Shown: one piece after another, positions 1-34,992 of the stretch
Layout of the letters: each line of letters begins with the position of its first letter
How positions within the stretch are numbered: position 1 is the first letter of the stretch
Source: a virus
Strand: one strand, 5' to 3'
IMG/VR virus record: IMGVR_UViG_3300044701_002106
Span: 1-42,461 of that record
Length of the DNA: 42,461 bases
Program-made: the position numbers and the translations under genes
The notes under the pieces: model-generated
The model's database searches: none
Seen by the model: the letters and a program-made list of their open reading frames with translations, nothing else
What the model was told of the DNA's origin: nothing

Positions 1-127
1 ACCATGGCGCTGTGCGAGGCCTTGTAGGTGCCACGCGGGCACTCGCGGATGAACTGCTCAGCCTCCTCGCTGGGCAGCACGAAGAACGGGTAGCCCCTGC
101 CGACCCGGTGCTTGACCACCTTCACCA
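1..127. repeat. Left copy of a 127-bp exact terminal repeat
   Basis: These 127 bases are identical to the last 127 bases of the window (42335-42461). The repeat lies inside the RNA polymerase gene, and removing one copy joins the two parts of that gene in frame. The length equals a k-mer size commonly used by short-read assemblers, so the simplest reading is a circular assembly overlap rather than a physical terminal repeat. Unit length after removal is 42,334 bp. Confidence 0.97.
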
Positions 128-695
128 GGCCGGTTGATGCGTCGATGTGGTGCAGCAGGAACTGCCCGACCTGCAGCCGGGCCATGTCGTTCCACGCCGG
201 GGCCGGGCAGCCCAGCTGGGTCATGACCTCTTTGCTGGCGATCTTGCGGCGGCTCATGCCGTGGCGCATCAAGCGGCGCAGCTCCAGCGGGCTTTTGTTC
301 TCCAGCCGCATCAGGCGGGTCTCGTCCTCCACCGCCTTGCCCAGGTTCTGGCAGAACGTGGCCATCCGCTGCTTGCGGCTGAGCTGATCGAGCGTCGCCA
401 CCAGGGCAACTGCAGCAATGTGATGCACCCCCTTGAAGCCATCGAAGTAGGGCATGGCCGCGGCGAACGGCCGGGCCTTGTCAGGGGCCAGCAGGAAGTC
501 CTCGAACTCGCTCTCCAGCGCCCCCGCTAGGGCCTCCAGGCAGACGCTGTACAGCCGCTGCCCATACGGCAGGGCCGACTCCTTGCCGAGCTCACGCAGG
601 CGGCGCTGCCCACTGGCGTGGGCCTCCTGCGCCCGGCGCTTGTCTTTCTCCTGTCTTGCGAGCTGCTCGTCTTGAGGGGTGCGAAAAACTTGCAA
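1..695 (-). CDS. Single-subunit (T7-type) RNA polymerase, N-terminal part across the contig junction
   Basis: This is the 5' part of the phage RNA polymerase gene; it continues at 42334 and ends at 40618, giving 803 residues after closing the circle (T7 RNA polymerase has 883). The frame is open from a stop at 732-734 and holds no ATG before 453-455. The only usable start before the conserved region is TTG at 693-695, giving a protein that begins LQVFRTPQDEQLARQEKDK. The downstream stretch GKAVEDETRLMRLE parallels T7 AIGRAIEDEARFGRIRDLE. No good ribosome site is visible. The start lies inside a cluster of GCAAGTT heptamers, so expression may be controlled by whatever binds them. The frame is certain; the exact start is not. 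Confidence 0.9.
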   Translation of the reverse strand, partial: MQVFRTPQDEQLARQEKDKRRAQEAHASGQRRLRELGKESALPYGQRLYSVCLEALAGALESEFEDFLLAPDKARPFAAAMPYFDGFKGVHHIAAVALVATLDQLSRKQRMATFCQNLGKAVEDETRLMRLENKSPLELRRLMRHGMSRRKIASKEVMTQLGCPAPAWNDMARLQVGQFLLHHIDASTGLVKVVKHRVGRGYPFFVLPSEEAEQFIRECPRGTYKASHSAM

Positions 696-745: not shown

Positions 746-786
746 AGCCAGCTAAAGCACCCTTGGAACGCTGTGTATAACTTGCT

Positions 787-800
787 CTACGAGGTCGTAA
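787..800 (-). promoter_or_regulatory. Candidate phage RNA polymerase promoter upstream of the RNA polymerase gene
   Basis: The minus strand reads TTACGACCTCGTAG, a full match to the YTAC-N6-GTAG consensus shared with 14552-14565, 29799-29812 and 34766-34779. It lies about 90 bases upstream of the TTG start of the RNA polymerase, within the heptamer cluster. This would allow positive autoregulation of the polymerase. The assignment as a promoter is by recurrence before genes, not by experiment. Confidence 0.5.
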
Positions 801-926
801 GGCCTGCTTGATCGGATTATGAGTGCGGAACACCCCTTGTGGCAAAAGGGATCTGCTCGCAAGTTGCAGGCAAGTTGCGGGAACTTGCGGCAAGTTTTGT
901 CGTCCTGCGAATTGAGCGGATAAATA

Positions 927-999
927 TGGGGGATGCCGGGATCGAACCGGCCTGACTCCGATTATGAGTCGGGTGCTTTCACCAGATAGCTAATCCCCC
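927..999 (-). tRNA. tRNA with anticodon CAU (Ile2 or Met)
   Basis: The minus strand folds as a cloverleaf. The 7-bp acceptor stem is GGGGGAT with ATCCCCC, and the T arm is GCCGG-TTCGATC-CCGGC. The anticodon loop CTCATAA has CAU at positions 34-36. The D arm is weak (three pairs, GCT with AGC) but carries the GG of the D loop. No CCA is encoded. The anticodon arm core CGACTCATAATCG equals that of E. coli tRNA-Ile2, which reads AUA after lysidine modification, so Ile2 is favoured slightly over elongator Met. The tRNA lies 41 bases from the end of the integrase gene, so it may be a functional tRNA, an attachment site taken from the host tRNA, or both. Confidence 0.88.
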
Positions 1000-1040
1000 A
1001 GCGCCCAGCTGGGCCGGGCAACAGTACGGCAGTCCTTGGA

Positions 1041-2054
1041 TCAGCCCTGCCTCTTTTCAAGGACCTCAAAGCAGCGGTCCAGCTCCTCTGATTTCATGTG
1101 GACGTAGCGCTCGCAGGTTTTGGCATTGCGATGGCCAAGCCATGCGCAGATCTCCAGCGTCGTGCGCCCCGCGTTGCCAAGCGCTGATCCAACCGTGTGC
1201 CGCAGCGCGTGCATGGCCCTGGGCATGTCGATGCCGCAGCGGGCCAGCGCTTTGTCGACCTGGTAGTCCAACTGCTTGTACTTGAGGGTCCACACCCGCA
1301 TGTGCGGCATGGGCGGCAAATAGGGCTGGATCGCCTCCAAGGCCCTTGGCGTGAGGCGCAGCACCCGGTTGCCTTCTTTGTTGTCCTTCACGGCCTTGAA
1401 GAACCGCACAGTGCGCTTCTCAAGGTCCACGTCTTGCCCCTTGAGCCGGGCAGCTTCGCTGAAACGGCAGCCCATCTCGCCCAAGAACACCACCATTGCG
1501 GCCTCTTGGTGCTTGCCACGCATCAGCAGGTCGTGGCAGGCCAGCCGCATTTCCTCGTCACTCCACACTCGTTTCTGCAAGTTGTGGACCGGCAGGTTCT
1601 CGGAAATTGGTGGCAGTGACTTCACGCCACCGTGGATCTTGGCCATTCTCCGGATTTGCCGGAGCTTGCTGAGCTTGGCGTTGATCGTTTGGGCCTGGTT
1701 CCCGCGGCGGATGAAGTGGGCGATCATCCGCTGCGTGTCCTTGATCTCCACCTCTTGCACGGGAGTCTGGTGGCCCAGGAACTCAACGACCTGCCTGGTG
1801 TAATCCAAGGAGGTGCGCTCGCTGACCATGCCCGCGTAGTGCTCCTCAAGGAACGGCAGGGCGTCCCCAAGGGTGAATCCGTTCGTCAGCGCAGGAGGCG
1901 CCTCGATGGCCTTCAGGGCCTCTGCTAGGCGCTGCTCAGCGTGTTTCTTGCTGTCGCAGGACAACTGCCTGCGGCGGCCACCTGGGTAGACAAGGTTCAG
2001 TACCCATTGGCCGCTCGCGCGCCTGGTGATCTTCCAGGAGCTGGGAGCGTTCAT
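1041..2054 (-). CDS. int: Tyrosine recombinase / phage integrase
   Basis: A 337-residue site-specific recombinase. The catalytic set is visible: Arg197 in GEMGCRFSEAARL, the HALRH box with His282 and Arg285, His308 in AWLGHRN, and nucleophile Tyr317 in CERYVH. The N-terminal part (about 60-150) is the SAM-like core-binding domain, and a short basic N-terminus may bind arm sites. It would integrate and excise the phage genome at an attachment site, for which the adjacent tRNA is the obvious candidate. Integrase genes next to the RNA polymerase are known from T7-like cyanophages. The ATG start follows a stem-loop (2063-2080) and a CCACGACC leader element just after the upstream marR stop, so it is probably cotranscribed with the regulator. 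Confidence 0.95.
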   Translation of the reverse strand: MNAPSSWKITRRASGQWVLNLVYPGGRRRQLSCDSKKHAEQRLAEALKAIEAPPALTNGFTLGDALPFLEEHYAGMVSERTSLDYTRQVVEFLGHQTPVQEVEIKDTQRMIAHFIRRGNQAQTINAKLSKLRQIRRMAKIHGGVKSLPPISENLPVHNLQKRVWSDEEMRLACHDLLMRGKHQEAAMVVFLGEMGCRFSEAARLKGQDVDLEKRTVRFFKAVKDNKEGNRVLRLTPRALEAIQPYLPPMPHMRVWTLKYKQLDYQVDKALARCGIDMPRAMHALRHTVGSALGNAGRTTLEICAWLGHRNAKTCERYVHMKSEELDRCFEVLEKRQG

Positions 2055-2093: not shown

Positions 2094-2414
2094 TTACGCG
2101 AGCCCTTCGATGGCCCGCTTGATGGCCAGTCCTTTCTTCGTGAGCCGCACTCGGTATCGCCTGCCCTCTGCTGGGTCAATGAAGACCTCAATCAGGCCTA
2201 GGCAGGTTTTGCGGTGGTTGGCGTGCTCCCCCAGGGAGTTCACGATTCGGCTGGCCGATGCGTTGCTCAGTCCAAACCGGGTTTCGATGTCCCGGTAGGT
2301 GCAGGACTCCTGCTGCGCGATGAACAGGAATACCTGCGCGTGATGGAGGGGAAGTGAGCCCGGATCCAGCGTTCCGAAAACGCCGAAAGCTCGCTCCAGT
2401 TGATCCAGATCCAT
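2094..2414 (-). CDS. MarR-like winged-helix transcriptional regulator
   Basis: A 106-residue protein with a winged-helix DNA-binding domain. A helix-turn-helix is visible in TYRDIETRFGLSNASASRIV, followed by a wing with GRRYRVRLTKKG, as in MarR proteins. MarR-type genes beside the integrase and RNA polymerase are described in T7-like cyanophages. The ATG is directly preceded by the GGTCGTGG (CCACGACC on the mRNA) element seen before other early genes. Upstream (2415-2586) lies a 172-base gap with a repeated TCATACGAG motif, which could be its own operator. It probably regulates lysogeny or the early operon; the ligand and targets are unknown. Confidence 0.8.
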   Translation of the reverse strand: MDLDQLERAFGVFGTLDPGSLPLHHAQVFLFIAQQESCTYRDIETRFGLSNASASRIVNSLGEHANHRKTCLGLIEVFIDPAEGRRYRVRLTKKGLAIKRAIEGLA

Positions 2415-5112: not shown

Positions 5113-5337
5113 TCAGTCCCCCAGCAGGCGCTCGTAGCGCTCAATGGCCGGGTAGGTGTCGAACACCAGGTCCGCCCATTCGTGCCACGGTTCCCCGCAG
5201 TCGTCACCGCAGGGATCGACAAGGAACCAGCAGGGCAGGCCCTCGTCATCAACGGCGGCCCGCACGGTGTGACAGGTCGCCTCCTCAAGCCGTGCGCGGT
5301 AATCCGGCAGGCTCAAGGCCAGGAAATCGGTTGCCAT
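5113..5337 (-). CDS. First gene of the leftward early block, hypothetical
   Basis: A 74-residue acidic protein beginning MATDFLALSLPDYRARLEEA. Its middle carries several Cys, His and Trp (CWFLVDPCGDDCGEPWHEW), which might bind a metal, though the spacing fits no standard finger. The end DTYPAIERYERLLGD is helical. It is the first minus-strand gene after the control region and so should be among the earliest expressed. Its leader holds a GCTGC/GCAGC hairpin and ACCACGACCACC, about 20 bases before the ATG. Confidence 0.6.
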   Translation of the reverse strand: MATDFLALSLPDYRARLEEATCHTVRAAVDDEGLPCWFLVDPCGDDCGEPWHEWADLVFDTYPAIERYERLLGD

Positions 5338-5437
5338 TTGTCGATGTGCTGCCGGTGGTCGTGGTGCTGCATGCGCAGCCCCGGCAACATCTGCAGTCTG
5401 CTGGATCTCTCCGGGGCCGGAGATGATCAGAGGAAGT

Positions 5438-5457
5438 TTGTTGATAATTCGTTACAA
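5438..5457. promoter_or_regulatory. AT-rich dyad, possible operator for the early block
   Basis: The 20-base sequence has twofold symmetry TTGT-N4-AATT-N4-ACAA and is an AT island in a GC-rich stretch. It lies about 100 bases upstream of the first early gene. Its size suits a dimeric winged-helix or ribbon-helix-helix repressor, three of which are encoded in the block it precedes. Confidence 0.4.
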
Positions 5458-5810
5458 AGGGGCAGGGGATGGCCTGGCAGCCTCGCCCGCCACCACCGCC
5501 GCCCACACGCTGGCCGCATCGCTGGCCCCACCGCTGGCCACCTGCGGGTAACTGAGGGCGCGGGCGTCAGTGCCCACCCCTGCGCCACCCCCGGCGGCCG
5601 CCAGCGTCGACCCTGCAACCCCGCCAGCCTGACCCGGCTGGTGGCATGCATCGGATGCCGCATCCGATCAACAGCAGGCCACCACAGGCCCCAGGCGGTT
5701 GACTTGCGGGCAGACTTGCCGGGCCCTGCAGCAGACGAAAGCAGGGGGCCATGGGGGGAAGGGCTGTTCCTCGCGCTGGAATAGCCCCGTTCATCGCGCG
5801 ACCCATTTTC

Positions 5811-5853
5811 GGGTTATTGCCAGCGTTATTCCCCTGGGTTATTGCCAGCGTTA
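5811..5853. repeat. 18-base direct repeat
   Basis: GGGTTATTGCCAGCGTTA occurs at 5811-5828 and again exactly at 5836-5853, 25 bases centre to centre. No other copy was noticed in the window. Two tandem sites of this length suggest a DNA-binding protein target. Confidence 0.75.
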
Positions 5854-5916
5854 AGGCCGGCAGGGCGCGGGTGATGGCGGGGTGAGGCAGGGGTGTTGAG
5901 GGCGGTTACGCGGGCC

Positions 5917-6016
5917 CCTTCTTATATCTGTCTTCTGTGTAGGAGGTTGGCAGGGTTTTATCGGGGTAAGAGGTGGGTTTGGACTACGGGGGTGTAGCGT
6001 CCTTCTTATATCTGTC
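5917..6016. repeat. 16-base direct repeat with TATAAG core on the minus strand
   Basis: CCTTCTTATATCTGTC is found at 5917-5932 and 6001-6016. Read on the minus strand each copy has TATAAG, one base from a sigma-70 -10 box, but no good -35 box lies 16 to 18 bases away. They may be host-polymerase early promoters helped by an activator, or operators. Confidence 0.6.
5984..5997 (-). promoter_or_regulatory. Candidate phage promoter in the control region
   Basis: The minus strand reads CTACACCCCCGTAG, a full YTAC-N6-GTAG element with the C-rich spacer of the other members. It points toward the leftward block and lies between the two TATAAG repeats. Because of the dyad the opposite orientation cannot be excluded, but the plus-strand spacer is G-rich, unlike the other family members. 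Confidence 0.4.
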
Positions 6017-6029
6017 GTTCCGTGGAACG
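6016..6029. promoter_or_regulatory. Perfect palindrome just upstream of the winged-helix gene
   Basis: CGTTCC-GT-GGAACG is a perfect inverted repeat ending 5 bases before the ATG at 6035. GGAACGC also occurs at 2074-2080 and 766-771 in part. It could be an operator or an mRNA hairpin covering the ribosome site of the gene. Confidence 0.45.
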
Positions 6030-6034
6030 CCTGC

Positions 6035-6445
6035 ATGGCTGTGTTGCTTACGGGGTCCTGTCCATTGACCCGGGAGGCGTTGGCGCTGGGGAGGGAGTGT
6101 GGGTTGGTGTATGGGGTGTTGTGGGAGGCGGCGTGGCATGACCAGCGTGGGGAGTGTGGGGGGACGACAGAGCTGAGCCATAAGGCGATTGCGGATCTTT
6201 GTCGGATCAGCGAGAAGACGGTGAGGAGTTCGGTGGACCTGTTGCTGGATGACGGGCTGATCAGCTGTCTGGGTTTGACCAACAGCTGGCATGGCGGATC
6301 ACGGAAGCGGATTTACCGGGTGTTGCATCCGAGTCAGGTGGAAGCGCAGCGGGTAGCGATTGATGTGATGGGTGAGGCGTTACGTCCGAGTGTGCGGGCG
6401 AAGATGTTGCGCACACCTGGTGGGCTGACGGGAGACGAGGATTAG
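6035..6445 (+). CDS. Winged-helix DNA-binding protein, first gene of the rightward block
   Basis: A 136-residue protein. Its centre (about 47-76) has a clear helix-turn-helix, ELSHKAIADLCRISEKTVRS, followed by SVDLLLDDGLIS and a wing with GGSRKRIYRV. This is the layout of phage replication-initiator or DnaD/RepA-type N-terminal domains and of some transcription regulators; the C-terminal tail carries no second domain. Codon use is unlike the neighbours, with many GGG, GTG and TTG, making the plus strand very G-rich; recent acquisition is possible. It lies next to repeats and a palindrome, so autoregulation or origin binding are both plausible. Confidence 0.68.
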   Translation: MAVLLTGSCPLTREALALGRECGLVYGVLWEAAWHDQRGECGGTTELSHKAIADLCRISEKTVRSSVDLLLDDGLISCLGLTNSWHGGSRKRIYRVLHPSQVEAQRVAIDVMGEALRPSVRAKMLRTPGGLTGDED

Positions 6446-6578: not shown

Positions 6579-6758
6579 ATGCCTTATCTGACGAATACCC
6601 AACGGTTGGAGTTGGGGTTAGTGGGTGCATCGGTTGTGAAGGAGGAGACGTTGGCTGGTGTGGTGCCTGAGGGGTATTACGTCGAGGGCTTTAGCCAGCC
6701 TGCTGCTGAGGAGCCGGCTGCCGGCGCATGTGAGATGCCAGCCAAGAAGAAGAAGTGA
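6579..6758 (+). CDS. Small protein coupled to the large terminase gene
   Basis: A 59-residue protein that I do not recognise: MPYLTNTQRLELGLVGASVV, an acidic middle with PEGYYVEGF, and a Lys-rich end PAKKKK. GAGGG lies 3 bases before the ATG. Its TGA overlaps the GTG start of the terminase gene (GTGA), so translation is coupled. The position directly before terL could suggest a packaging role, but a better small-terminase candidate exists at 8493-8732. Confidence 0.65.
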   Translation: MPYLTNTQRLELGLVGASVVKEETLAGVVPEGYYVEGFSQPAAEEPAAGACEMPAKKKK

Positions 6759-8518
6759 AGGAGCTGTGGGAGCCGTTACCGGATGTCTTGCGGGACAGCT
6801 TCCCGAACTTCACTTGTTATTTGCTGCGGGAGTTGGGGTTAGCGGATAGCCCCACCCGTCAGCAGATCAGTGTCTGTGACTGGATGCAAAACGGCCCCGA
6901 GCGGTCGTTGACGGTGGCGTTCCGGGGCCTGGGGAAGTCGATCCTGGCGTCGTTTTATGCGTTGTGGCGGCTGCGGGTGGATCCCAGCGAGAAGATCCTG
7001 GTGGTGTCAGCCACGGCCGTGAAGGCGACGGACTTTTCGTCCTTCATGCTGCGCTGCATTGGCGAGGTGGACATCCTGCAGTGCCTGATGCCAGGGCCCA
7101 GCAACCGGTTCTCCAACGTGGCCTTTGATGTGGGCCCCACGATGGTGGAGCAGTCTCCATCGGTGCGCTCGATGGGGATCATGGGGCAGACCACGGGTCA
7201 GCGTTGTACCTGCGCAATCCTTGATGACGTGGAGACGTTGGCCAATGTGATCACCCAGCTCAAGCAAGAGCGGGTGGCGCATGCGGTTGAGGAGATCCAG
7301 TCGATCATCAAGCCCGATGAAGGGCAGCCGTTAGCGCGGAAGATCCTGTACCTGGGGACACCGCACACCGAAACCAGCATTTACCTGCGGCTGGTGCGGG
7401 AGCGCAGCTATTCGGCTCGTTATTGGCCGGCGTTGTACCCCAAGGAGCTGGAGTCGTATGAGGGGAATCTGGACCCCGTGCTGGAGGCTGAGGTCTTAGC
7501 CGACCCTGCCCTGACGGGGGAGCCAACAGATCCCGAGCGTTTTTCGCACGAAGACCTCCTGCAACGCAAAGCGGCCATGACCAAGGCCAGCTTTGAGCTG
7601 CAGTTCATGCTCAACACCCGTCTGGCCACGCTGGACAAGTTCCCCGTGCGCCTGGGGGACCTGATCGTGATGGACATCGACGGCACGGCACTACCGGAAA
7701 CGGTGGTGTGGTCGAACCAGCCCGACATGCGTTTGCAGGAGCTGGTCTGCGTCGGGATGGGATCTGATCGCTTCTACCACCGCCCGATCTTCCAGAACGG
7801 CTGGATTTCCCGCAGTGAGCAGTGGCGGTGTGTGCTGGCGATTGACCCTGCTGGCCGCGGCGCCGATGAACTGGCCTGGGCGGTGGTGGCCGAACTGAAC
7901 GGCAACCTGTTCCTGCTGGAATCCGGCGGCAGCACCCTGGGTTATGCCGATGAGGTGCTGCAGTACCTGGCCAAGGTGGCCAAGAAGTGGGACGTGAACT
8001 ACGTCGTCGCCGAATCCAACATGGGCGACGGCATGTTCTCGGCGCTGCTCAAGCCGCACCTGATGCGGGAGCACCCCGTCACCATCGAGGAGGTGCGTCA
8101 CAACCAGCGCAAGGAGCAGCGGCTGTGTGACACGTTGGGTCCGCTGATCCAGCAGCATCGCCTGGTGGTCACCACCCGCGTCATCAAGCAGGACTACCGC
8201 CTGCTGGATGAAGACCCGGAAACCGGCTACAGCCGCTCACTGTTTGTCCAGGCCAGCCGCCTGACCGCTGAGAAGGGCTGCCTTAGCCATGACGACCGTT
8301 TGGATGCACTGGCGATTGCCTGTGGGTTCTTTGTGGAGTCCGCGGCGCAAGACCAGCAGCGGGCTGCACGGGCGCGTGCGGACCAGCTGCAGCAGGAGGC
8401 GTATGACGCTTGGCTGGATGAAAGCGGTGCTGCGATTGATGCCCTGGCGCTGGGCTGGCGGCCGAAGGCCTCCCATCGCGCCCACGGTGGGGTCAGCCGG
8501 CTTCGCGTTGGCGGTTGA
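6755..8518 (+). CDS. terL: Terminase large subunit (T7 gp19-like)
   Basis: The ATP-driven DNA packaging motor and nuclease, 587 residues (T7 gp19 is 586). The ATPase Walker A is AFRGLGKS at about 55-62 and Walker B is AILDDVE at about 154-160. The coupling motif is in ILYLGTPHTETSIY. The C-terminal RNase H-like nuclease has AIDPAGRGADE near 363, ESNMGDGMF near 419 and HDDRLDALAI near 512, supplying the metal-binding acids. These align along the whole length with T7 gp19. The GTG start overlaps the stop of the small gene upstream. Its last 26 bases overlap the end of the convergent small-terminase gene. In T7 this gene follows the tail genes; here it opens the late block. Confidence 0.97.
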   Translation: MKELWEPLPDVLRDSFPNFTCYLLRELGLADSPTRQQISVCDWMQNGPERSLTVAFRGLGKSILASFYALWRLRVDPSEKILVVSATAVKATDFSSFMLRCIGEVDILQCLMPGPSNRFSNVAFDVGPTMVEQSPSVRSMGIMGQTTGQRCTCAILDDVETLANVITQLKQERVAHAVEEIQSIIKPDEGQPLARKILYLGTPHTETSIYLRLVRERSYSARYWPALYPKELESYEGNLDPVLEAEVLADPALTGEPTDPERFSHEDLLQRKAAMTKASFELQFMLNTRLATLDKFPVRLGDLIVMDIDGTALPETVVWSNQPDMRLQELVCVGMGSDRFYHRPIFQNGWISRSEQWRCVLAIDPAGRGADELAWAVVAELNGNLFLLESGGSTLGYADEVLQYLAKVAKKWDVNYVVAESNMGDGMFSALLKPHLMREHPVTIEEVRHNQRKEQRLCDTLGPLIQQHRLVVTTRVIKQDYRLLDEDPETGYSRSLFVQASRLTAEKGCLSHDDRLDALAIACGFFVESAAQDQQRAARARADQLQQEAYDAWLDESGAAIDALALGWRPKASHRAHGGVSRLRVGG

Positions 8519-8732: not shown

Positions 8733-8762
8733 GGCTACAAGGGTGTAGAGCTCTAATCCACT

Positions 8763-9356
8763 ATGACGATGGAGGACGGCCTGATCACGCCGCAGAAATG
8801 GCGTGATTGTTGGCGGTGGTACAGGGCTGAACAACAGCAGCAGGAAGGAATCAACCTCCTGTATGAACACATCAAAGCAGCTGATCCAGCGTTATTGCAC
8901 GAATCAGCCGAGTGGCTGCAAGTTTTTCGCTCCCGAACCCTGGCAGAGGGGGAGTATGCCAACAGCTGGGAGGGTGTGAAGGCTGCTGCCGCGGCCTACG
9001 GCGCCCGTTTTCCGCAGGTTGTGGCCGCTCAGTGGGCCCTGGAGAGCAATTACGGGGCTCATCCGTCCGGTCGCTGGAACATGTTTGGCCTGAAGGGCCC
9101 TGGAACGCCGTGTAAGACCAGCGAGGTGTACGGCGGCAAGGAAGTCAGGATCGTTGACACCTTTATGGACTTCACGAGCCTTGGTCATGCCGTCCGATAC
9201 CTGTGCGATCGGTGGTACAAGGACTTCAAGGGCTATCGCGGGGTCAATCGAGCGACCACACCCGAGGAGTGCGCCCGGCTTCTGCAGGCTGAGGGGTATG
9301 CAACGGACCCGCTTTACAGCAAAAAGCTGATCACGATCTTCACCAGACGCCGGTAG
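8763..9356 (+). CDS. GH73-type glucosaminidase, endolysin candidate
   Basis: A 197-residue peptidoglycan hydrolase. The C-terminal two thirds match the FlgJ/LytG-type endo-beta-N-acetylglucosaminidase fold, with the catalytic Glu94 in AAQWALESNYG, then WNMFGLKG and an FMDFTSLGHAVRYL segment typical of the family. Residues 16-56 form a separate helical module (W-RWYRAEQQQQEG, LLYEHIKAADPALL, EWLQVFR). A related module begins the C39 peptidase at 35430-36143. No signal peptide is seen, so release would need a holin. An alternative start is ATG at 8769. It sits between the terminase genes and the gp7.3-like cluster, so a virion-associated lysin is also possible. Confidence 0.85.
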   Translation: MTMEDGLITPQKWRDCWRWYRAEQQQQEGINLLYEHIKAADPALLHESAEWLQVFRSRTLAEGEYANSWEGVKAAAAAYGARFPQVVAAQWALESNYGAHPSGRWNMFGLKGPGTPCKTSEVYGGKEVRIVDTFMDFTSLGHAVRYLCDRWYKDFKGYRGVNRATTPEECARLLQAEGYATDPLYSKKLITIFTRRR

Positions 9357-9409: not shown

Positions 9410-9601
9410 GTGGGCTACGTCCCCGTCATTGACGAGAAGGTGGTTGGCCTTTTGGCTGAGCAGTTTCCCGACCAGGCGCCGTCCATGGACATGACGGAGA
9501 AGGAGGTCTGGTTTCGCGCCGGCCAGGTCTCAGTGGTCCGCTGGCTGAAGAAGCACCGGGAGGATCAGCAACAAGGCCTGCTTGGCGTGGAGGTGCCCTG
9601 A
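9410..9601 (+). CDS. Small hypothetical protein before the gp7.3-like cluster
   Basis: A 63-residue protein that I do not recognise. It reads as one or two helices (DEKVVGLLAEQFPDQ, KEVWFRAGQVSVVRWLKKH) and ends GLLGVEVP. The GTG start at 9410 is the only common start near the conserved part, but the frame is open upstream, so the start is uncertain. Its TGA overlaps the ATG of the next gene (TGATG), and GGAGGTG inside its last codons serves as that gene's ribosome site. Confidence 0.55.
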   Translation: MGYVPVIDEKVVGLLAEQFPDQAPSMDMTEKEVWFRAGQVSVVRWLKKHREDQQQGLLGVEVP

Positions 9602-10008
9602 TGTGCGCAGGAGGAGGCAGCCCGGCAACGATCACGATGCCGGACTACAGCGCCTACAACAACGAGTTCCAGCTGCAGAAAGCTGCGATTGAGCAGTCAA
9701 TGAACAGCGGAACGCAGCAGAAGCAGCAGGAATTGACTGCATCGCTGCGCAATCAGGAGCGTGTTGCTGCACAGGTCGCTGAGCAGGCCAAGTTGCAGGC
9801 CGAAAACAACAATGCCGCGGCCATGCGCATGGCGACGCTGATTGGCACGCCGCCGCCGGAGCCCACGGCCCAGGCGCCGCGTGTTGGCAGCGCTGCCCGT
9901 GGCATCAACACCAGCAAGGGCAAAGGCGCGCTGCGGATTGGCCGATCCACGGCGCCTGTCGCCAATAGCGGCGGCTCTGGGCTGAACATCACCACCCTTT
10001 CTGCTTAG
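9601..10008 (+). CDS. gp7.3-like tail/virion protein, paralogue 1
   Basis: A 135-residue protein beginning MCAGGGSPATI, with a Gln-rich helical middle (NEFQLQKAAIEQSMNSG, then long QQKQQELTASLRNQERV) and a C-terminal motif GALRIGRSTAP...GSGLNI. T7 gp7.3, a small tail-associated virion protein, ends KSLSVARSSGGGINI, and the same order (short basic strand, R/S, gap, G-x-G-x-NI) is seen here. Two similar genes follow directly. The ATG lies behind GGAGGTG. Early Cys-Gly-Gly in all three paralogues is not a normal lipobox, as no signal segment precedes it. Confidence 0.65.
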   Translation: MCAGGGSPATITMPDYSAYNNEFQLQKAAIEQSMNSGTQQKQQELTASLRNQERVAAQVAEQAKLQAENNNAAAMRMATLIGTPPPEPTAQAPRVGSAARGINTSKGKGALRIGRSTAPVANSGGSGLNITTLSA

Positions 10009-10018
10009 GAGGTCTCTC

Positions 10019-10417
10019 ATGTGCATTGGCGGTTCCCCTCAAGCCCCTGAGGTCGTCTACCGGGGCCCTAGCGAGGCCGATATTCAGCGCAACCGCGACT
10101 CGCTGAGCGCTTATCAGTCGCAAATGCAAAAGCAGCAGTCGGATTTTCAGTCCCAGCTGCAGATGCAGATCGACAAAGCCAACCAGGAGACCACTGATCT
10201 GCAAAAGCGGTACGAAAACGAGGCAGCTGCAGCAGCAGCGGCGTCTGCAGCACAGCAAACGTCGACCTATGCGATTTCTGCATCGCAGACCGAGGCGCCT
10301 GAGGCGGCCAAAACCACTGCAGCGACGGTCAAAAAGAAGAAGCCCGAGAGCAACCTGTCGATTAGTCGGGCTGCGCTGCCGGCTTCTGCTGGCACTGGCC
10401 TCAACATTGGAGTCTGA
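10019..10417 (+). CDS. gp7.3-like tail/virion protein, paralogue 2
   Basis: A 132-residue protein. It starts MCIGGSPQAPEVVYRGPSEA, has a coiled, Gln-rich helix (about 20-80: DIQRNRDSLSAYQSQMQKQQ, continuing to YENEAAAAAA) and ends SNLSISRAALP...GTGLNIGV. The N- and C-terminal motifs match the genes on both sides, and the C-terminus resembles T7 gp7.3. An AGGAGG site created partly by the upstream stop lies 7 bases before the ATG. Confidence 0.65.
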   Translation: MCIGGSPQAPEVVYRGPSEADIQRNRDSLSAYQSQMQKQQSDFQSQLQMQIDKANQETTDLQKRYENEAAAAAAASAAQQTSTYAISASQTEAPEAAKTTAATVKKKKPESNLSISRAALPASAGTGLNIGV

Positions 10418-10419
10418 CC

Positions 10420-10854
10420 ATGTGCGGAGGAGGACGGCCACAGGAGCACATCGACGCTGAGGCCCAGCGCGAGCGTGATCGGCAGGCACGCATCGCCCAA
10501 GAGCGCCAGCGGGAGCTGGATCGCCTGGCCCGTGAGCGCGAGGCAACCGCCGCGGCCCAGCAAGCGCAAATGCAAGCGCTGCAGAAGCAGCAAATCGAAT
10601 CCGAGCAGCAGCAAAACGCCCAGGTGGCCCAGCTTGGAGCCGATCAGCGGCAGCGCCTGGCTGGCATCAGCGCCAGGGGTACTGCGGTGTCGGAATCGCT
10701 GCAAATCCTGGCTCGACAGCCGGCCAAACAGGCGCCAACCGCCGCCGTGGACGACAAAAACACCCGTCAGCAGGGCGCCAAGACCACAACCGCAAGCCTG
10801 CGGATGGGGTCAGGCAGCTATGGCGCCGGTTCTGGCGCAAACATCTCGGTGTAA
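10420..10854 (+). CDS. gp7.3-like tail/virion protein, paralogue 3
   Basis: A 144-residue protein. It starts MCGGGRPQEHIDAEAQRERD, has a long charged helix through about residue 75 and ends TASLRMGSGSYGAGSGANISV. It shares the MCxGG start and G-x-G-x-NI-type end of its two neighbours, though the core helix has drifted to Arg/Glu-rich. The ATG is 2 bases after the preceding TGA, and GGAG lies just upstream. The portal gene starts 3 bases after its stop codon. Confidence 0.65.
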   Translation: MCGGGRPQEHIDAEAQRERDRQARIAQERQRELDRLAREREATAAAQQAQMQALQKQQIESEQQQNAQVAQLGADQRQRLAGISARGTAVSESLQILARQPAKQAPTAAVDDKNTRQQGAKTTTASLRMGSGSYGAGSGANISV

Positions 10855-10857
10855 CCC

Positions 10858-12474
10858 ATGGAATCAGCGGAACAGTGCTACCGGCGGCTTGAAAGCGACC
10901 GCGACCACTACCTGGATCGCGCACGGGTTGCAGCACGGCTGACAATCCCGTACCTGATTCCCGACACCAACGAGCCCGACAAAAATTCCAAGGACTCGTA
11001 TGCCGTGCCGTGGAATGGCATTGGCGCACGCGGCGTCTTGAACCTGGCCAGCCGCATGCTGCTTGCCCTGCTGCCGCCCACGCAGCAGTTCTTCCGCTTT
11101 TCGCTGGATGACGCCGAGCTGGCCAAGCAAGGCGTCACACCGGAGCAGAAATCCGCGACAGAGGAAGCGCTCAGCAAGATCGAGCGCATGGTGTTGCGGG
11201 AGATCGAGGCCAGCAACGACCGCGTGGTGTTTCACGAGGCGCTGCTGCACCTGATCGTTTCGGGCAACGCCCTGCTCTACATCTCCTCGGAGGGCCTGCG
11301 GGTCTTTCATCTAAACCGCTATGTGGTCTCCCGGGACCCCATGGGCAACCCGCTGGAGGTGGTGACCTGCGAGCAGCTGGCCATCCAGCAGCTGCCCAAA
11401 AAGATCCAGGACCTGCTGTACGAGGAGGAGGACGAGCTGCGCGGCATCCTTGACCACGAGCGGCATTTGACCGCCCAGGGCAAGGAAAAGACCGTCAAGC
11501 TCTACACCTACGTCTGCTGGAAGAACGGCTACGTCTATTGGCACCAGGAGGTGCGGGGCAAGAAGATCCCCGGCACTGAAGGCAAGGCGCCCAAAGAGGT
11601 GAGCCCATGGCTGCCGCTGCGGATGACCCGCTGCGACGGCCAGCCCTATGGCGTTGGCTACATCGAAAGCGCTGCCATCGCTGACCTGCAGACCGTTGAG
11701 GCGCTGTGCCAGGCGATTGCAGAAGGTGCATTGGCCAGCAGCAAGGTGCTGTTTCTGGTCAAGCCCAGCGGCGTCACCAAAGCGGCCGATCTGGCCCGGG
11801 CGCCCAACGGTTCTTTCGTCACGGGCGACCCCAACGACGTGTTGGCGCTGCAGGTCCAGAAGTCTTCTGACCTGAGTGTTGCCATGCAGGGCAAGCAGCA
11901 GATCGAGGCGCGCCTAGCACAGGCGTTCATGCTGGCCGATATGCGGGACGCCGAGCGGGTCACCGCTGAGGAAGTGCGGCTGCAGGCGCTGCAGATCGAA
12001 AACAGCCTGGGCTCGATCTACTCAATCCTGACGACCGAGTTCCAGGTCCCGTATGTGTCGCGCAAGCTCGACATCCTGACCCGCCAGGGCAAGGTGCCGA
12101 AGATGCCCAAGGAGCTGGTCAAGCCGGTGATGACCGTTGGCCTGGCAGCTGTGGGCCGCGGCAACGACCTTGAGCAGCTGGTGCGCTTCACCACCACGCT
12201 TGGCAACACCATCGGGCCCGAGGGCCTGTCGCGGTACGTCAAGCCGCCTGAGCTGATCAAGCGCTTGGCGTACTCCATGGGCATCGACATCCTCGGCCTG
12301 GTCAAGTCCGACGAGGAGCTGGCTGCTGAAGCCCAGCAGCAACAGCAGATGGCCATGGCGCAGCAGGCCATGCAATCCAACATGGCTGACCCGCAAAAAC
12401 TCGCCACTGCAGCCGCCACCGTGCAGGACATGCAGATGGCGGCTGAACAACCCCCTGAAGACCAACCCGCATGA
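10858..12474 (+). CDS. Portal / head-tail connector protein (T7 gp8-like)
   Basis: A 538-residue portal protein (T7 gp8 has 536). It would form the dodecameric ring through which DNA enters and leaves the head. Recognisable segments are the N-terminal YRRLESDRDHYLDRARVAARLTIP-type helix (first residues), GARGVLNLASRMLLALLPPTQQFFRF, FHEALLHLIVSGNALLY, and a late AQAFMLADMRDAERVTAEEV helix typical of T7-type connectors. The tail is Gln-rich (AEAQQQQQMAMAQQAM). The stop overlaps the scaffold start by 4 bases (ATGA). It lies at its usual place before scaffold and capsid. Confidence 0.95.
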   Translation: MESAEQCYRRLESDRDHYLDRARVAARLTIPYLIPDTNEPDKNSKDSYAVPWNGIGARGVLNLASRMLLALLPPTQQFFRFSLDDAELAKQGVTPEQKSATEEALSKIERMVLREIEASNDRVVFHEALLHLIVSGNALLYISSEGLRVFHLNRYVVSRDPMGNPLEVVTCEQLAIQQLPKKIQDLLYEEEDELRGILDHERHLTAQGKEKTVKLYTYVCWKNGYVYWHQEVRGKKIPGTEGKAPKEVSPWLPLRMTRCDGQPYGVGYIESAAIADLQTVEALCQAIAEGALASSKVLFLVKPSGVTKAADLARAPNGSFVTGDPNDVLALQVQKSSDLSVAMQGKQQIEARLAQAFMLADMRDAERVTAEEVRLQALQIENSLGSIYSILTTEFQVPYVSRKLDILTRQGKVPKMPKELVKPVMTVGLAAVGRGNDLEQLVRFTTTLGNTIGPEGLSRYVKPPELIKRLAYSMGIDILGLVKSDEELAAEAQQQQQMAMAQQAMQSNMADPQKLATAAATVQDMQMAAEQPPEDQPA

Positions 12475-13328
12475 CCACGACCCCAAACGCGCAAACCGCG
12501 CCTCAGATCACCACTCCCGAAGCTGCGGCAGAAGGAATGGTGGCGCCCGGGCAGGAAAGCCTGCTGGAGGAATTTGTCAAAGAGCAGCAGGGCCAACAGG
12601 CGCCCGAGCTGCTCGCCGGCAAGTTCAAGAGCGTTGAGGACCTGGAGCGCTCCTACCAAGAACTGGAGAAAAAGCTGGGCCGGCCCGAGCGGCAGTCAAC
12701 CGAACAAGAAGCTCCCCCTCAGGCCGAGGGCTACACACAGGAGCAGGCCGTTGAGGTCTATGGCCAAGAAGCCGTAGAGACCCTGGCCAGCAAAGGCGTC
12801 GACCTGGCGGACGTGATGTTCCGCGCCGACAGCGGCGAGGATGTGAGCAGCCACTACGACGCGCTGGCTGAAGCCTTCAACGTCCCCCGCCAGGTGGTGG
12901 AAAACTATGTCGCCAAGGCCCAGTCATCGACAGGGCAGCAGGCTGGCCTGAGCGAAGCAGACACGGCTCAGATCAAATCCATGGTCGGCGGCGACGAGGG
13001 CTTTGCCGAGCTCAGCAAGTGGGCCGCCAGCAACCTCAATGCCCAGGAGCTGGCCGACTACAACGCTGTGGTCGACGGCGGCAACAAAGAGGCCATTCAG
13101 TGGGCCCTGCGGGCAATGGTGGCCAGACGCGCCTCTCCAGACGCTGTTGTTGAACCCAAGCTCTACGGGGGCGGAGATGCACCTCAGCAATCCCGCTTTG
13201 AGAGCCAACAGCAAGTGCTTGATGCCATGGGCAAGACCAATGAGCGCGGACAACGCCTGTACGAAGTTGACGAGGCTTACCGCTCCAAGGTGGCAAAGAT
13301 GTTGGCGGCAAGTGATCTATTCGTGTAG
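12471..13328 (+). CDS. Scaffolding protein (T7 gp9-like)
   Basis: A 285-residue acidic, Gln- and Glu-rich helical protein between portal and capsid genes, as expected for the scaffold that directs procapsid assembly and then leaves. A segment GKFKSVEDLERSYQELEKKLG (about 45-65) is characteristic of phage scaffold proteins of this family. The C-terminal end, with KTNERGQRLYEVDEAY and KVAKMLAAS, is helical and probably contacts the capsid protein. The start overlaps the portal stop (ATGA). Confidence 0.92.
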   Translation: MTTTPNAQTAPQITTPEAAAEGMVAPGQESLLEEFVKEQQGQQAPELLAGKFKSVEDLERSYQELEKKLGRPERQSTEQEAPPQAEGYTQEQAVEVYGQEAVETLASKGVDLADVMFRADSGEDVSSHYDALAEAFNVPRQVVENYVAKAQSSTGQQAGLSEADTAQIKSMVGGDEGFAELSKWAASNLNAQELADYNAVVDGGNKEAIQWALRAMVARRASPDAVVEPKLYGGGDAPQQSRFESQQQVLDAMGKTNERGQRLYEVDEAYRSKVAKMLAASDLFV

Positions 13329-13433
13329 TTTTTTGCCAGACGCCACCTAAGCGGCGGGCCCTCCAAGGAGGACAACCTGCGACGGTGAAGGAGAGAGCGA
13401 TCTAACAACTCAATCCCTTCGCATACCAGAAAA

Positions 13434-14471
13434 ATGGTTGCTCCCGTTCTTAATCGCACTGGCCAAATCCAAGGCGCCGCCGCTACCTGGGGCGCCGGTG
13501 CTGCCGGCCTCGATGCCGACCGCGCTCTGATGCTGAAGCTGGGCGCCGCTGAGGTGCTCGATAGCTTCCTGCGCACCACTGTGTTCAAGGGCAAAGTCCG
13601 CGAACGCAACATCCGCGGCGGCAAGAGCGTTGCCTTCCCGATCACCGGTCGCCTGGAGGCAAAATATCACCAGCCCGGCACTGCGCTCACTGGCTCAACC
13701 AACACCAGTGACCTCAACGAGCGGATCATTTCGCTTGACGCCCTGATGGTTGCGGATGCCGCAATCCTTGAGGTGGACGAGCTGATGTCGTACTTCGATG
13801 TCCGGCAGGTCTACACGACCGAGCTGGGCCGGGCCCTGGCCTACGAGTACGACAAGCGTGTTGCCCGCATGATCTTTGCGGCTGCCAGCAACACCACTCA
13901 GCCCCTGGCTAAGGCGATCAACGCCAACAAGACCGGTAACGCCATCACCCTTGGCGCTGACTACACCGGCGCTGGCGCCACCCGCCAGGCCAAGGGCGAC
14001 GCCCTGGTCAACGCCATCTTCGATGCCCGCGTGGCCTTTGAGGGCAAGGACGTGCCTGTTGACGGCATGTATGCAGTCTTCACTCCTGAGGACTACTTCC
14101 TGATCTCGCAGTCTTCGCGTGCAATCAACGCCGACTTCAACGGCGGCGGTGGCGGCAATGGCACCATTGCCAACGGTCAGGTCCTGCAAGTGGCTGGCAT
14201 CCCTGTGCTGATGTCCAACCACGTCACCCAGGCCAACTACACCCTGCAGGCTGGTGACTACAACAGCGACTACGCTCAGAACCTGAGCAAGTGCAAGGGT
14301 CTGATCTTCAGCAAGGAAGCCGTGGGTGTTCTCACCCTGCTGAGCCCCTCCCTGCAGATGACCGGTCCCGAGTACAGGGTTCAGAACCAAGCCGACCTTA
14401 TGGTTGCCCGCCAAGCTCTGGGCATGGGTGTGCTGCGCGCTGAGTCCGCTTGTAAGATCGTGATTCCCTGA
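13434..14471 (+). CDS. Major capsid protein (T7 gp10-like, HK97 fold)
   Basis: A 345-residue capsid protein, matching T7 gp10A in length. It is recognisable by GGKSVAFPITGRLEAKYHQPG (compare SGKSAQFPVLGRTQAAYLAPG of T7), ISLDALMVADAAILEVDELM and YFDVRQVYTTELGRALAYEY. The C-terminal GVLTLLSPSLQMTGPEYRVQ and ADLMVARQALGMGVLRAE correspond to the end of T7 gp10. The 105 bases upstream hold an AAGGAGG about 60 bases from the start but no ribosome site next to the ATG. A strong terminator follows the gene. No frameshift product (10B) is evident. Confidence 0.96.
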   Translation: MVAPVLNRTGQIQGAAATWGAGAAGLDADRALMLKLGAAEVLDSFLRTTVFKGKVRERNIRGGKSVAFPITGRLEAKYHQPGTALTGSTNTSDLNERIISLDALMVADAAILEVDELMSYFDVRQVYTTELGRALAYEYDKRVARMIFAAASNTTQPLAKAINANKTGNAITLGADYTGAGATRQAKGDALVNAIFDARVAFEGKDVPVDGMYAVFTPEDYFLISQSSRAINADFNGGGGGNGTIANGQVLQVAGIPVLMSNHVTQANYTLQAGDYNSDYAQNLSKCKGLIFSKEAVGVLTLLSPSLQMTGPEYRVQNQADLMVARQALGMGVLRAESACKIVIP

Positions 14472-14503
14472 GTTCTCGGGGTTCATCGGAGTGTTCACCC
14501 CAG

Positions 14504-14530
14504 GGGGCCGGCAATGCTGGCCCCTTTTTT
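14504..14530 (+). terminator. Rho-independent terminator after the capsid gene
   Basis: GGGGCCGGC (14504-14512), loop AAT, and GCTGGCCCC (14516-14524) form a 9-bp stem with one G-U pair, followed by six T. It lies 33 bases after the capsid stop. T7 has its terminator at the same place, just after gene 10. Confidence 0.9.
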
Positions 14531-14540
14531 CGTTGTCCAG

Positions 14541-14570
14541 CACAATGAGTGCTACAAGGCCGTAGAAGTC
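14541..14570 (+). promoter_or_regulatory. Phage promoter candidate before gene 11
   Basis: A 30-base block matching 29788-29817 at 27 positions. Its core is CTACAAGGCCGTAG (14552-14565), preceded in both copies by CACAATGAGTG. It follows the capsid terminator by 10 bases and precedes the gp11 start by 2. The right half resembles the cyanophage Syn5 promoter as I remember it (ending CACCCGTAA). It would restart transcription for the tail and core genes. Confidence 0.65.
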
Positions 14571-14572
14571 AA

Positions 14573-15235
14573 ATGGGACTCGCCAATCAGTCGGTCACCC
14601 CAGGCAGGACGACGCTGTTGGATGCGGTCAACGTCCTGCTGGAAAACATTGGCGAGCAGCCGGTCAGCACGCTGGAAAACCAGCAGATCATGGATGCGCG
14701 CATTGCAGAGCGCACCCTGCTGGAGTTCCACAAAGAAGGCCAGATCAAAGGCTGGAGCTGGAATAGCGAGTTCAACTACGAGTTCGTCAAAAACAGCACC
14801 ACTAACCAGATCACGGTGCCGGCAAACGTGGTGAGTTTCTCCACGGACCCCTACTACTACGCAGGGCGTTTCCAGCTGCGGGGCCAGGTGGTGTACGACC
14901 GCGACAAGCGCACCAGCACGCTGGCGGCGGAAATCACCTCCCTGTATGCCGATGTGATCTGGCTGCTGCCGTGGGACCAGGCGCCTGAGGCCTACAACCG
15001 CTGGGTCACCATCCGCTCCGCCCGCGTCTTTGCCAGCCGTGTACTGGGGGCCGACTCGCTGATTCGCTACAGCGTCCAGGACGAGCGCGACGCGCAAGCA
15101 GCGCTGGAGCGCGTGGAGCAGCAGGTTGACCAGCCCAACATGCTCACCGGCAGCCGCGGCTACCTGCCCTTCCCGACCTATGCGCCGGCTTCTGGGCTTG
15201 CCACCCGCCGGATCAGTTCTGGGATGCGCCTCTGA
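14573..15235 (+). CDS. Tail tubular protein A (T7 gp11-like)
   Basis: A 220-residue gatekeeper or adaptor ring protein joining portal and nozzle. Family features are the start SVTPGRTTLLDAVNVLLENIGEQPV, the TLLEFHKEGQIKGWSWNSE segment and PEAYNRWVTIRSARVFASRVLG. The start MGLANQS is preferred over codons 8 positions upstream because those fall within the repeated promoter block. The stop overlaps the gp12 start by one base (TGATG). Confidence 0.93.
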   Translation: MGLANQSVTPGRTTLLDAVNVLLENIGEQPVSTLENQQIMDARIAERTLLEFHKEGQIKGWSWNSEFNYEFVKNSTTNQITVPANVVSFSTDPYYYAGRFQLRGQVVYDRDKRTSTLAAEITSLYADVIWLLPWDQAPEAYNRWVTIRSARVFASRVLGADSLIRYSVQDERDAQAALERVEQQVDQPNMLTGSRGYLPFPTYAPASGLATRRISSGMRL

Positions 15236-18006: not shown

Positions 18007-18449
18007 GATGGATTGAAGCCAATGAGGAGGTGGCCATGGAAATTGGCTTGCACCTGCGGCAGCAGGACTGCGAGGAGGTGATGCTCAGCCATGGCGTGCA
18101 GCCCCTGGAGGCCGTCATCGAGAGCTACTTGGAGAGCACGATCTGCCGTGCCATTGAGGGAGACGATGGCCGCCCTGTTGGCATCACTGGCGTCTGCGGT
18201 GATCGCATTTGGCTGCTGGGCACTTCCGCGCTGACGGAAACCAAAAACCACCGCCGGATGCTCTGCAAGCACGGCCGGGAATGGGTTGACTACTGCCTCA
18301 AGGAGATTGGCCGCCCCATTGGCAACTACGTCTACTCCAAGAACCGAATAGCCATTCGATGGCTAATGCATCTTGGTTTTACCGTTGAAGGACCGCGCCC
18401 ATTTGGGCGGAGCTCTGCATTGTTCTGCCCGTTCTGGAGGGAGGCGTAA
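18003..18449 (+). CDS. gp13-like protein (internal virion assembly, GNAT-like fold)
   Basis: A 148-residue protein in the position of T7 gp13. It shares the run GVQPLEAVIES, GRPVGITGVCGDRIWLLGT, HRRMLCKHGREWVDYC and NYVYSKNRIAIRWLMHLGFTV with T7 gp13 (FPLAIGGNCGDQCWFVTS, NYVWVGNTSHIRFLKTIGA). The last motif is the end of a GNAT acetyltransferase-like fold; acetyl transfer is not shown, and T7 gp13 acts in core assembly. The ATG overlaps the gp12 stop (ATGA) and its TAA overlaps the next ATG by one base. Confidence 0.85.
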   Translation: MRWIEANEEVAMEIGLHLRQQDCEEVMLSHGVQPLEAVIESYLESTICRAIEGDDGRPVGITGVCGDRIWLLGTSALTETKNHRRMLCKHGREWVDYCLKEIGRPIGNYVYSKNRIAIRWLMHLGFTVEGPRPFGRSSALFCPFWREA

Positions 18450-19279
18450 TGGCACAAGCACCTGGAACTGGAGGGATTCCATTCAGCATTGACCCTGTAT
18501 CGCTTGGCGTTGCTGCCGTATCGACTGGCCTGTCATTCCTGACGGCCAACGCCCAGGAGCAGGCCAGGCAGCAGGAGTACCTCAACCAGACCGCGTTCCA
18601 GAACGCCACCACGCAGTTCAACCAGTGGCAGGCCGGGTTCAACGCAGATATGCAGAACCTGAATAACCAGTACAGCTACTGGGCAACCACGGTCGATTAC
18701 AACCAGAAGCTCGGCTACACCCAGCAGCTGCGGAACTACGAGTTCGCCAAGGAGATCGACCAGGCCAGTCGCGTTGCACAGACCCGCGCAAGCGCCGGCA
18801 CGGGCTACGCGATCAACGCCGCGGCCGTGCAGCAGCAGCTGCAGGAACGCGGGATGCAGGAAGCCGTCGCCATCCAGCAGTTCGCCTACAGAGCGCTGCA
18901 GTCCTCTGCGGCGTTCCAGGCGTCCATGCAAGAAGGCAAGTCGTCCGATCGCTATGTGGCCAACTTCTCCCGTCAGATGGGGGACTACAAGACGCTCAAA
19001 AACATTGAGCAGGGCTTGAGAGACCGCCAGTACAACCGCGACCAGCTGGCTCAGATCACCCGCTACCTCAACGAATACAACAGCCAGACCTTCTACGAGA
19101 AGCAGCCGTACCTCGATCCGGTTGCCCCATTCCCGCCGCTGCCAACGATGGTGACCCCGCCGCCGCCGTCGATGACCGGCAGCGCCCCAGCAAACATGTC
19201 CGCCCTCAATGCGGGCACCTCTGTGCTGGGTGGCGTCAACGCCTATCTCGGCACCGCCGCAAAGATCAAAGCCCTGTAA
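18449..19279 (+). CDS. Internal virion protein (T7 gp14-like)
   Basis: A 276-residue protein in the gp14 position. In T7 gp14 is ejected first and forms a pore in the outer membrane. It has a short hydrophobic N-terminus (PVSLGVAAVSTGLSFLTANA, about 16-35) followed by a long Gln/Asn-rich helix (QEQARQQEYLNQTAFQNATT). A characteristic TRASAGTGYAINAAAVQQQL segment follows, similar to gp14-like virion proteins and other phage pore candidates. The Pro-rich stretch at 225-250 precedes a GTSVLGGVNAYLGTA tail. Confidence 0.85.
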   Translation: MAQAPGTGGIPFSIDPVSLGVAAVSTGLSFLTANAQEQARQQEYLNQTAFQNATTQFNQWQAGFNADMQNLNNQYSYWATTVDYNQKLGYTQQLRNYEFAKEIDQASRVAQTRASAGTGYAINAAAVQQQLQERGMQEAVAIQQFAYRALQSSAAFQASMQEGKSSDRYVANFSRQMGDYKTLKNIEQGLRDRQYNRDQLAQITRYLNEYNSQTFYEKQPYLDPVAPFPPLPTMVTPPPPSMTGSAPANMSALNAGTSVLGGVNAYLGTAAKIKAL

Positions 19280-19291
19280 CCACTGCGAGCC

Positions 19292-21613: not shown

Positions 21614-21627
21614 TTACGACCCCGGAC
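21614..21627 (+). promoter_or_regulatory. Weak promoter-like element before the large virion protein
   Basis: TTACGACCCCGGAC has the left arm and the GACCCC spacer of the YTAC-N6-GTAG family but not the right arm (GGAC). It begins directly after the gp15-like stop, 46 bases ahead of the next start. A decayed or weak promoter is the best reading. Confidence 0.25.
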
Positions 21628-21659
21628 AACTCCGCGCATGTGCGGTGGAATAGGGGCAG

Positions 21660-26381: not shown

Positions 26382-26384
26382 TCC

Positions 26385-29774: not shown

Positions 29775-29787
29775 CGCCGTCAACGGC

Positions 29788-29817
29788 CACAATGAGTGCT
29801 ACGAGCCCGTAGTAGTC
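29788..29817 (+). promoter_or_regulatory. Phage promoter candidate before the tail fibre gene
   Basis: A 30-base block with 27 matches to 14541-14570. Core CTACGAGCCCGTAG (29799-29812) with upstream CACAATGAGTG. It lies 14 to 40 bases after the virion protein stop and 10 before the tail fibre ATG. T7 likewise has a promoter (phi17) before its tail fibre gene. Confidence 0.65.
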
Positions 29818-29827
29818 TGGCACTCCA

Positions 29828-33804: not shown

Positions 33805-33839
33805 CCTATGAAACGGGCACATCCTCACCGGAGCTAACC

Positions 33840-34325: not shown

Positions 34326-34459
34326 TGGCGGCTAAGTCAAAGGCTGGCACTGCAAAGGTCGAACACGTTTCCCGTGCGGCCTACAAAAAGACCAGCATCG
34401 GCAACTCCGTCAGGAGCAAGGCCAGGGGCCGCAAAAAGCGCCGCGGCCAGGGCAGGTAG
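34325..34459 (+). CDS. Tiny basic protein, cyanophage type
   Basis: A 44-residue, strongly basic protein: KSKAGTAKVEHVSRAAYKKT then RSKARGRKKRRGQGR. A C-terminal RGQGR/K ending on a small basic protein is a recurrent feature of T7-like and other cyanophages in my recollection. It would bind nucleic acid or pack in the virion. The start overlaps the preceding stop (TGATG). Confidence 0.7.
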   Translation: MAAKSKAGTAKVEHVSRAAYKKTSIGNSVRSKARGRKKRRGQGR

Positions 34460-34506
34460 CGCCAGCGGTCAGGGTCGATACGCTGCTCATAGGTTTTGCC
34501 CCTGCC

Positions 34507-34758: not shown

Positions 34759-34765
34759 CAGACCG

Positions 34766-34779: not shown

Positions 34780-34804
34780 CGTTGGGCGGTCAGATCCCTG
34801 CGTT

Positions 34805-34990: not shown

Positions 34991-34992
34991 GC

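Follow-up and report, generated by a model that had tools for sequence, protein, structure and literature searches.

The stretch of DNA analysed here (42,461 nucleotides, hereafter the window) is an IMG/VR virus record whose first and last 127 bases form an exact end repeat; it thus represents a circle, 42,334 bp long, with the cut falling within the RNA polymerase gene. Because the record is circular, this gene, though apparently cut at both ends of the window, is intact; the joined product has 803 aa, and the residues corresponding to T7 D537, K631, Y639, H811 and D812 are all kept. Genes were assigned by PHROGs and Pfam profile searches, and their coordinates are collected in Table 1. They fall into two divergent blocks. 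Leftward run, in order, a 74-aa ORF, small regulators, a MarR-like gene, integrase, tRNA-Met, RNA polymerase, SSB, a RusA-like resolvase, primase/helicase, exonuclease and a C39-peptidase lysin; rightward run a winged-helix gene, a 59-aa ORF, terminase, a glucosaminidase lysin, portal, scaffold, capsid, tail tubes, internal proteins and fibres.

A first-pass annotation, made from the letters alone, had placed integrase, regulators, RNA polymerase and replication genes on the leftward strand and terminase, head and tail genes on the rightward strand, and gene assignment bears this out. The 0.7-kb control region from which the blocks were said to diverge is indeed the inter-block gap, and the point of convergence, with its 18-base overlap, had been located exactly. 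Terminase had further been described as opening the late block: it does lie at the start of that block, but as its third gene, preceded by the winged-helix gene and the 59-aa ORF. A sequence similar to this ORF occupies the same place in the relatives G001, G002, G003 and S37C6. The convergence is likewise conserved in relatives, although the 18-base overlap is not, G003 having a gap there.

Two lysin-type genes (8763–9356 and 35430–36143) flank the structural module in opposite orientations; a single endolysin family, phrog_10051, covers both, the glucosaminidase type matching one half of it and the C39-peptidase type the other. Copies of TGGTCGTGG, which reads CCACGACCA on the coding strand, recur across the early block (2414, 3422, 4193–4235, 4841–4861 and 40549–40563), with one copy just 5′ of the SSB gene.

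Table 1. Features of the window, ordered by position; a dot denotes no assigned strand.
Feature	Coordinates	Strand	Evidence or remark
Phage RNA polymerase, N-terminal part	1..695	-	phrog_414 E 6e-18
TTAC-N6-GTAGAGCAA element directly 5′ of polymerase gene	782..800	-	candidate phage-RNAP promoter; resembles Syn5 promoter
tRNA-Met (CAU)	926..1000	-	likely att region
Tyrosine integrase	1041..2054	-	phrog_1 E 2.5e-34; PF00589; R-H-R-H-Y pattern in alignment
MarR-like regulator	2094..2414	-	phrog_9665 E 6e-21; PF12802
74-aa ORF, first leftward gene	5113..5337	-	translation; similar sequence in G001
Non-coding divergent control region	5338..6034	.	gap between 74-aa ORF (5337, -) and winged-helix gene (6035, +)
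Two tandem CCTTCTTATATCTGT units (5917, 6001)	5917..6028	+	candidate rightward promoter/operator units
CTAC-GGGGGT-GTAG dyad	5984..5997	.	polarity ambiguous
Winged-helix protein, first late-block gene	6035..6445	+	weak PHROG replication-initiator/O-like and HTH matches
Conserved 59-aa ORF just 5′ of terminase	6579..6758	+	translation
Terminase large subunit	6755..8518	+	phrog_38 E 4e-84
CTAC-N6-GTAG dyad, 5′ of lysin	8735..8748	+	
Glucosaminidase-type lysin	8763..9356	+	PF01832 E 6e-16
Structural module: small ORFs, portal, scaffold, capsid, tail tubes, internal proteins, fibres	9410..35214	+	
CTAC-N6-GTAG dyad, at start of tail tube A	14552..14565	+	
CTAC-N6-GTAG dyad, 5′ of tail fibre gene (29828)	29799..29812	+	
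Convergence point of blocks, 18-base overlap of two ORFs	35197..35214	.	translation
C39-peptidase lysin-like gene	35430..36143	-	PF13529 E 1.5e-16; phrog_10051
5′-3′ exonuclease	36160..37059	-	phrog_107 E 3e-53; PF02739
Primase/helicase	37871..39568	-	phrog_239 E 2.6e-118
RusA-like Holliday junction resolvase	39632..40078	-	PF05866 E 9e-8
Single-stranded DNA-binding protein (gp2.5-like)	39978..40547	-	phrog_112 E 1e-12
Phage RNA polymerase, C-terminal part, across circular join	40618..42334	-	phrog_414 E 3e-111

Divergent control region

Gaps equivalent to the control region, of ~0.5–0.9 kb, are found at the same place in AP013546, AP013547, AP013548 and S-SRP02. The second of the tandem CCTTCTTATATCTGT units (6001) is followed by a CGTTCC-GT-GGAACG dyad, which the first (5917) lacks. 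Dyad arms following these units covary in G002, G003 and S37C6, each dyad taken alone being only weakly above chance. Dyads 3′ of the TATATCTGT box were also considered as operators; long arms occur in some only, and they are kept as a lead. A sigma-70 promoter scan gave no excess. Control of the rightward block would most likely be exerted here, by the winged-helix gene together with the tandem promoter/dyad units beside terminase.

Conservation of the two-block plan

A terminase search of IMG/VR contigs recovered 98 relatives, 80 of which were kept. Portal lay 3′ of terminase on the same strand in 67/67 related loci with both visible, and both integrase and RNA polymerase, where visible, lay 5′ of terminase on the opposite strand (17/17 loci in each case). 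The two-block plan was found in all judgeable members of a set of 17 longer contigs and four GenBank genomes, except G011, S-SRP02 and S38-C3, and the same map is present in the GenBank Mediterranean fosmid phages S37-C6 (AP013546) and S31-C1 (AP013547). The two-block layout is therefore real, and common to many relatives.

Orientation of the structural module

The circle can be divided into four modules (integrase and regulators; polymerase and replication; structural; winged-helix and terminase), with the control region always between the integrase/regulator and the winged-helix/terminase modules. What differs is the structural module (about 9.4–35.2 kb), which in the window type lies 3′ of terminase, and in the isolate S-SRP02 and contig G011 lies 3′ of the exonuclease gene on the replication strand, in the T7 orientation. 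The breakpoints match in G011, the one contig resolved on both sides: the ORFs of window 9410–10854 and the portal follow directly after the exonuclease gene, the counterpart of the ORF at 8515 stays behind terminase, and that of the ORF at 34721 is located beyond the fibres, at the other end. The order exonuclease, portal, both on a single strand, also occurs in L148, a shorter locus. A single inversion of the structural module would thus interconvert the plan of the window and that of S-SRP02 and G011. S38-C3 follows a third plan, the T7 circular order with the integrase module alone running in the opposite direction.

Loci with the portals nearest that of G011 (82–85% identity) include twelve with the window plan; the portal of L148, with exonuclease then portal, is 78% identical. 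In the portal tree (trees were built with FastTree and treekit), G011 grouped with the two-block locus L141 (SH-aLRT 98), and L148 with two-block L157 and G016 (SH-aLRT 97). This tree implies three state changes, and the best trees place G011 and L148 inside the flipped group, but a single two-block clade was not rejected (p-AU 0.43, 0.53 and 0.23), so that repeated flipping is plausible rather than established. Reversion of G011 from a two-block state was not accepted as proven, the trees favouring it in part and the tests not rejecting one origin. It is clear that the portal-to-fibre module of the window is inverted relative to its replication module when compared with T7, P-SSP7 and S-SRP02, and the two-block layout seems to arise by flipping of the whole structural block as a unit.

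Candidate promoters on both strands

Four CTAC-N6-GTAG dyads occur in the window where about 0 would be expected, and the loop is 6 in every one. Three lie in the rightward block (Table 1), that at 14552 coming after a rho-independent-type terminator (14502–14526) that follows the capsid gene; the remaining copy is in the control region (5984..5997). A related form, CTAC-N6-GTAGAGCAA (≤1 mismatch), had 12 matches in 22 genomes, 11/12 of them on the early strand, and 0 in reversed controls. Its usual sites are just 5′ of the RNA polymerase or SSB genes, or past the exonuclease gene, and it is kept 5′ of the polymerase in the otherwise unalignable cassettes of the window and G001/G002. With a matrix trained on relatives only, the window site at 800(−) scored 25.7, compared with 11.8 for the best reversed-sequence match; other copies in the window scored 7 to 17, some of them better on the opposite strand, and the control-region copy (5984) scored higher leftward than rightward.

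The 3′ end of the CTAC-N6-GTAGAGCAA form, GTAGAGCAA, resembles the Syn5 promoter plus start, CCCGTAA-GCAA, in a comparison with Syn5 genome sites; the corresponding end in G003, CCCGTAGAGCAA, comes near to CACCCGTAA-GCAA, the promoter and start of Syn5 as defined by experiment (PMC3950665). A single-polarity promoter of Syn5 or T7 type was rejected as a description of every dyad, since the copies at 732, 40588 and 5984 cannot be assigned cleanly to a single polarity. On sequence grounds, the dyads are candidate phage-polymerase promoters or processing hairpins. As they head units in both blocks, phage-polymerase promoters may serve both strands.

Integration cassette, lineage and host

The window carries a MarR–integrase–polymerase cassette with a tRNA, of the type described in LUZ100. 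The window and G001 are 94–98% identical over most of their shared sequence, yet window 603–2050 (integrase, tRNA and att region) is cleanly replaced in G001, the two integrases being 37% identical; the replacement cassette of G001 is common to G002. Integration cassettes swapped between such near-identical phages are presumably used. A complete tRNA-Met(CAU) lies directly 3′ of integrase in the window and six relatives, with a tRNA-Leu in G003, and Rfam gave no match besides tRNA.

The window adds another member to the Oinezvirus-like group (G9), an uncultured lineage that includes Oinezvirus S37C6; it agrees with this group in gene content, two-block map and a terminase ~80–90% identical. 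Of the traits of Autographiviridae, it has its own single-subunit RNA polymerase with catalytic residues and T7-type portal, scaffold, capsid, tail tubes and terminase, but not the arrangement of all genes on one strand with terminase last. That arrangement is usual in the family rather than formally defining; a family A DNA polymerase is also usual. The latter (PF00476) was absent from the window and 10 relatives (L002–L005, G010–G013, G017 and G019) in a search in which T7 and P-SSP7 scored as expected. Primase/helicase, SSB and exonuclease are present in most members of this DNA-polymerase-free lineage. The close relatives AP013546–8 are still placed in Autographiviridae by GenBank. Overall, the window constitutes the entire genome, circular in its map, of a T7-related phage with an integrase; its host is probably a cyanobacterium, judging from its relationship to S-SRP02 and from a tRNA like that of cyanophage S-PM2.

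Alternative explanations

An assembler that had turned one block could have produced the layout artificially, and the record is indeed metagenomic, with a 127-bp end overlap. This is extremely improbable, because independent contigs and the GenBank fosmid phages (AP013546, AP013547) share the gene order, in 67/67 portal neighbourhoods and 17/17 for the early genes, and because the junctions of the flip are of gene size and correspond from one relative to another; the layout is not an assembly inversion. A more serious proposal is that the two-block plan is older and shared by descent with Saffermanviridae, the T7-like order of S-SRP02, G011 and T7 then being derived. Terminase adjoining portal is the usual order in tailed phages, and Pf-WMP4 (Saffermanviridae) has the same order and orientation as the window, with detectable homology of terminase, capsid and primase. 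However, neither its portal nor its tail tubes show detectable homology to the window proteins, the T7 order is found in every RNA-polymerase-bearing outgroup examined, and S-SRP02 and S38-C3, both exonuclease-to-portal, form the sister group of the two-block phages. An older two-block plan, shared by descent, is accordingly considered unlikely.

The layout had also been said to recall the central switch of temperate phages. An intact integrase beside a tRNA and a MarR gene agrees with that suggestion, and a classical switch could be envisaged in which a repressor made from the leftward block binds the dyads of 5338–6034 and silences the rightward late block in the lysogen; the winged-helix gene, the tandem promoter/dyad units facing the late block and the exchange of the integrase/att cassette between near-identical phages could all be accommodated. 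The divergence itself is no sign of lysogeny, since neither integrase nor MarR is detectable in Pf-WMP4, a phage built on the same block plan. Moreover, T7-like cyanophages with integrase and attP integrate transiently but form no stable lysogens (PMC8776855), the proposed operator dyads are individually only weakly above chance, and a scan of 84,980 species genomes, which reaches close relatives only, turned up no related prophage. A classical switch is thus a doubtful account of the region. The sole match of that scan, L086 (NZHF01000068), is a phage contig of this lineage in a gammaproteobacterial MAG, probably a binning error.

Proposed model

Taken as one, the observations are likely to be best explained by a T7-related circular genome with an inverted portal-to-fibre module and phage-RNA-polymerase promoters in both blocks. 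Host polymerase would act first, transcribing leftward through the regulators, MarR and integrase into the phage RNA polymerase gene; the phage enzyme would then use its own promoters at the heads of units in both blocks, for which the CTAC-N6-GTAG dyads are candidates. With promoters so placed, late transcription would run rightward whatever the order of entry. The likely att site, in the tRNA, lies between the integrase and RNA polymerase genes, such that integration might part the polymerase from its upstream promoter and excision rejoin the two.

In T7, the textbook case, gene order is tied to DNA entry. It is possible, and we advance it tentatively, with rather less than even confidence, that the 26-kb module is a cassette flipped more than once beside a fixed control region, and that this is tolerated because phage-polymerase promoters on both strands, rather than entry order, time the late genes. 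The occurrence of the same module in both orientations among close relatives allows testing of how far T7-style order matters, and the clade supplies promoter candidates for the RNA polymerase of a cyanophage. It also urges caution, in that integrase and divergent blocks alone do not make a phage temperate.

Comparison with known phages

T7 and P-SSP7 share with the window homologous polymerase, SSB, primase, exonuclease, portal, capsid, tail tubes and terminase, but in both a single strand carries the genes, terminase lies towards the right end and a gp5 DNA polymerase is present. Synteny comparison upholds the contrast with T7 drawn by the first-pass annotation: in T7, P-SSP7, Syn5, HTVC019P and LUZ100 alike, replication, structural and terminase genes share a single strand and terminase comes close to the end. 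LUZ100 and other temperate-type T7-like phages resemble the window in having MarR, integrase and a tRNA just before the RNA polymerase gene; unlike the window, LUZ100 has all protein genes on one strand, terminase last and a DNA polymerase.

The closest likeness is to Oinezvirus S37C6 (AP013546) and Nohivirus S31C1 (AP013547) of group G9, which have the two-block map of the window, its integrase–MarR–RNA polymerase block and terminase adjoining portal. The window terminase is 87.6% identical to that of S37C6 and 79.8% to that of S31C1, although their integrases diverge from that of the window (37% and 49% identity, respectively) and S37C6 is without the tRNA. The layout goes undiscussed in the available passages of the papers describing these two phages. 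Synechococcus phage S-SRP02 (MW822601) has the same genes, the MarR–integrase–polymerase order and terminase opposite the early genes, but its structural module is on the replication strand, as in T7, and primase/helicase was not detected.

Pf-WMP4 (DQ875742) also has two convergent blocks, its terminase-to-tail genes (terminase, portal, scaffold, capsid, tail tubes, tail) running on the strand opposite replication. It differs from the window in having its own DNA polymerase and no detectable RNA polymerase, integrase, MarR, portal or tail-tube homologue; the window, with an RNA polymerase and without the portal and tail-tube match, is therefore not one of the Saffermanviridae. Six freshwater cyanopodoviruses, Pf-WMP4 and its kin, have been published with a two-block plan (PMC10140849), and the plan as such was therefore already known. 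What is added here is the 26-kb module in both orientations within a narrow clade, and candidate promoters on both strands.
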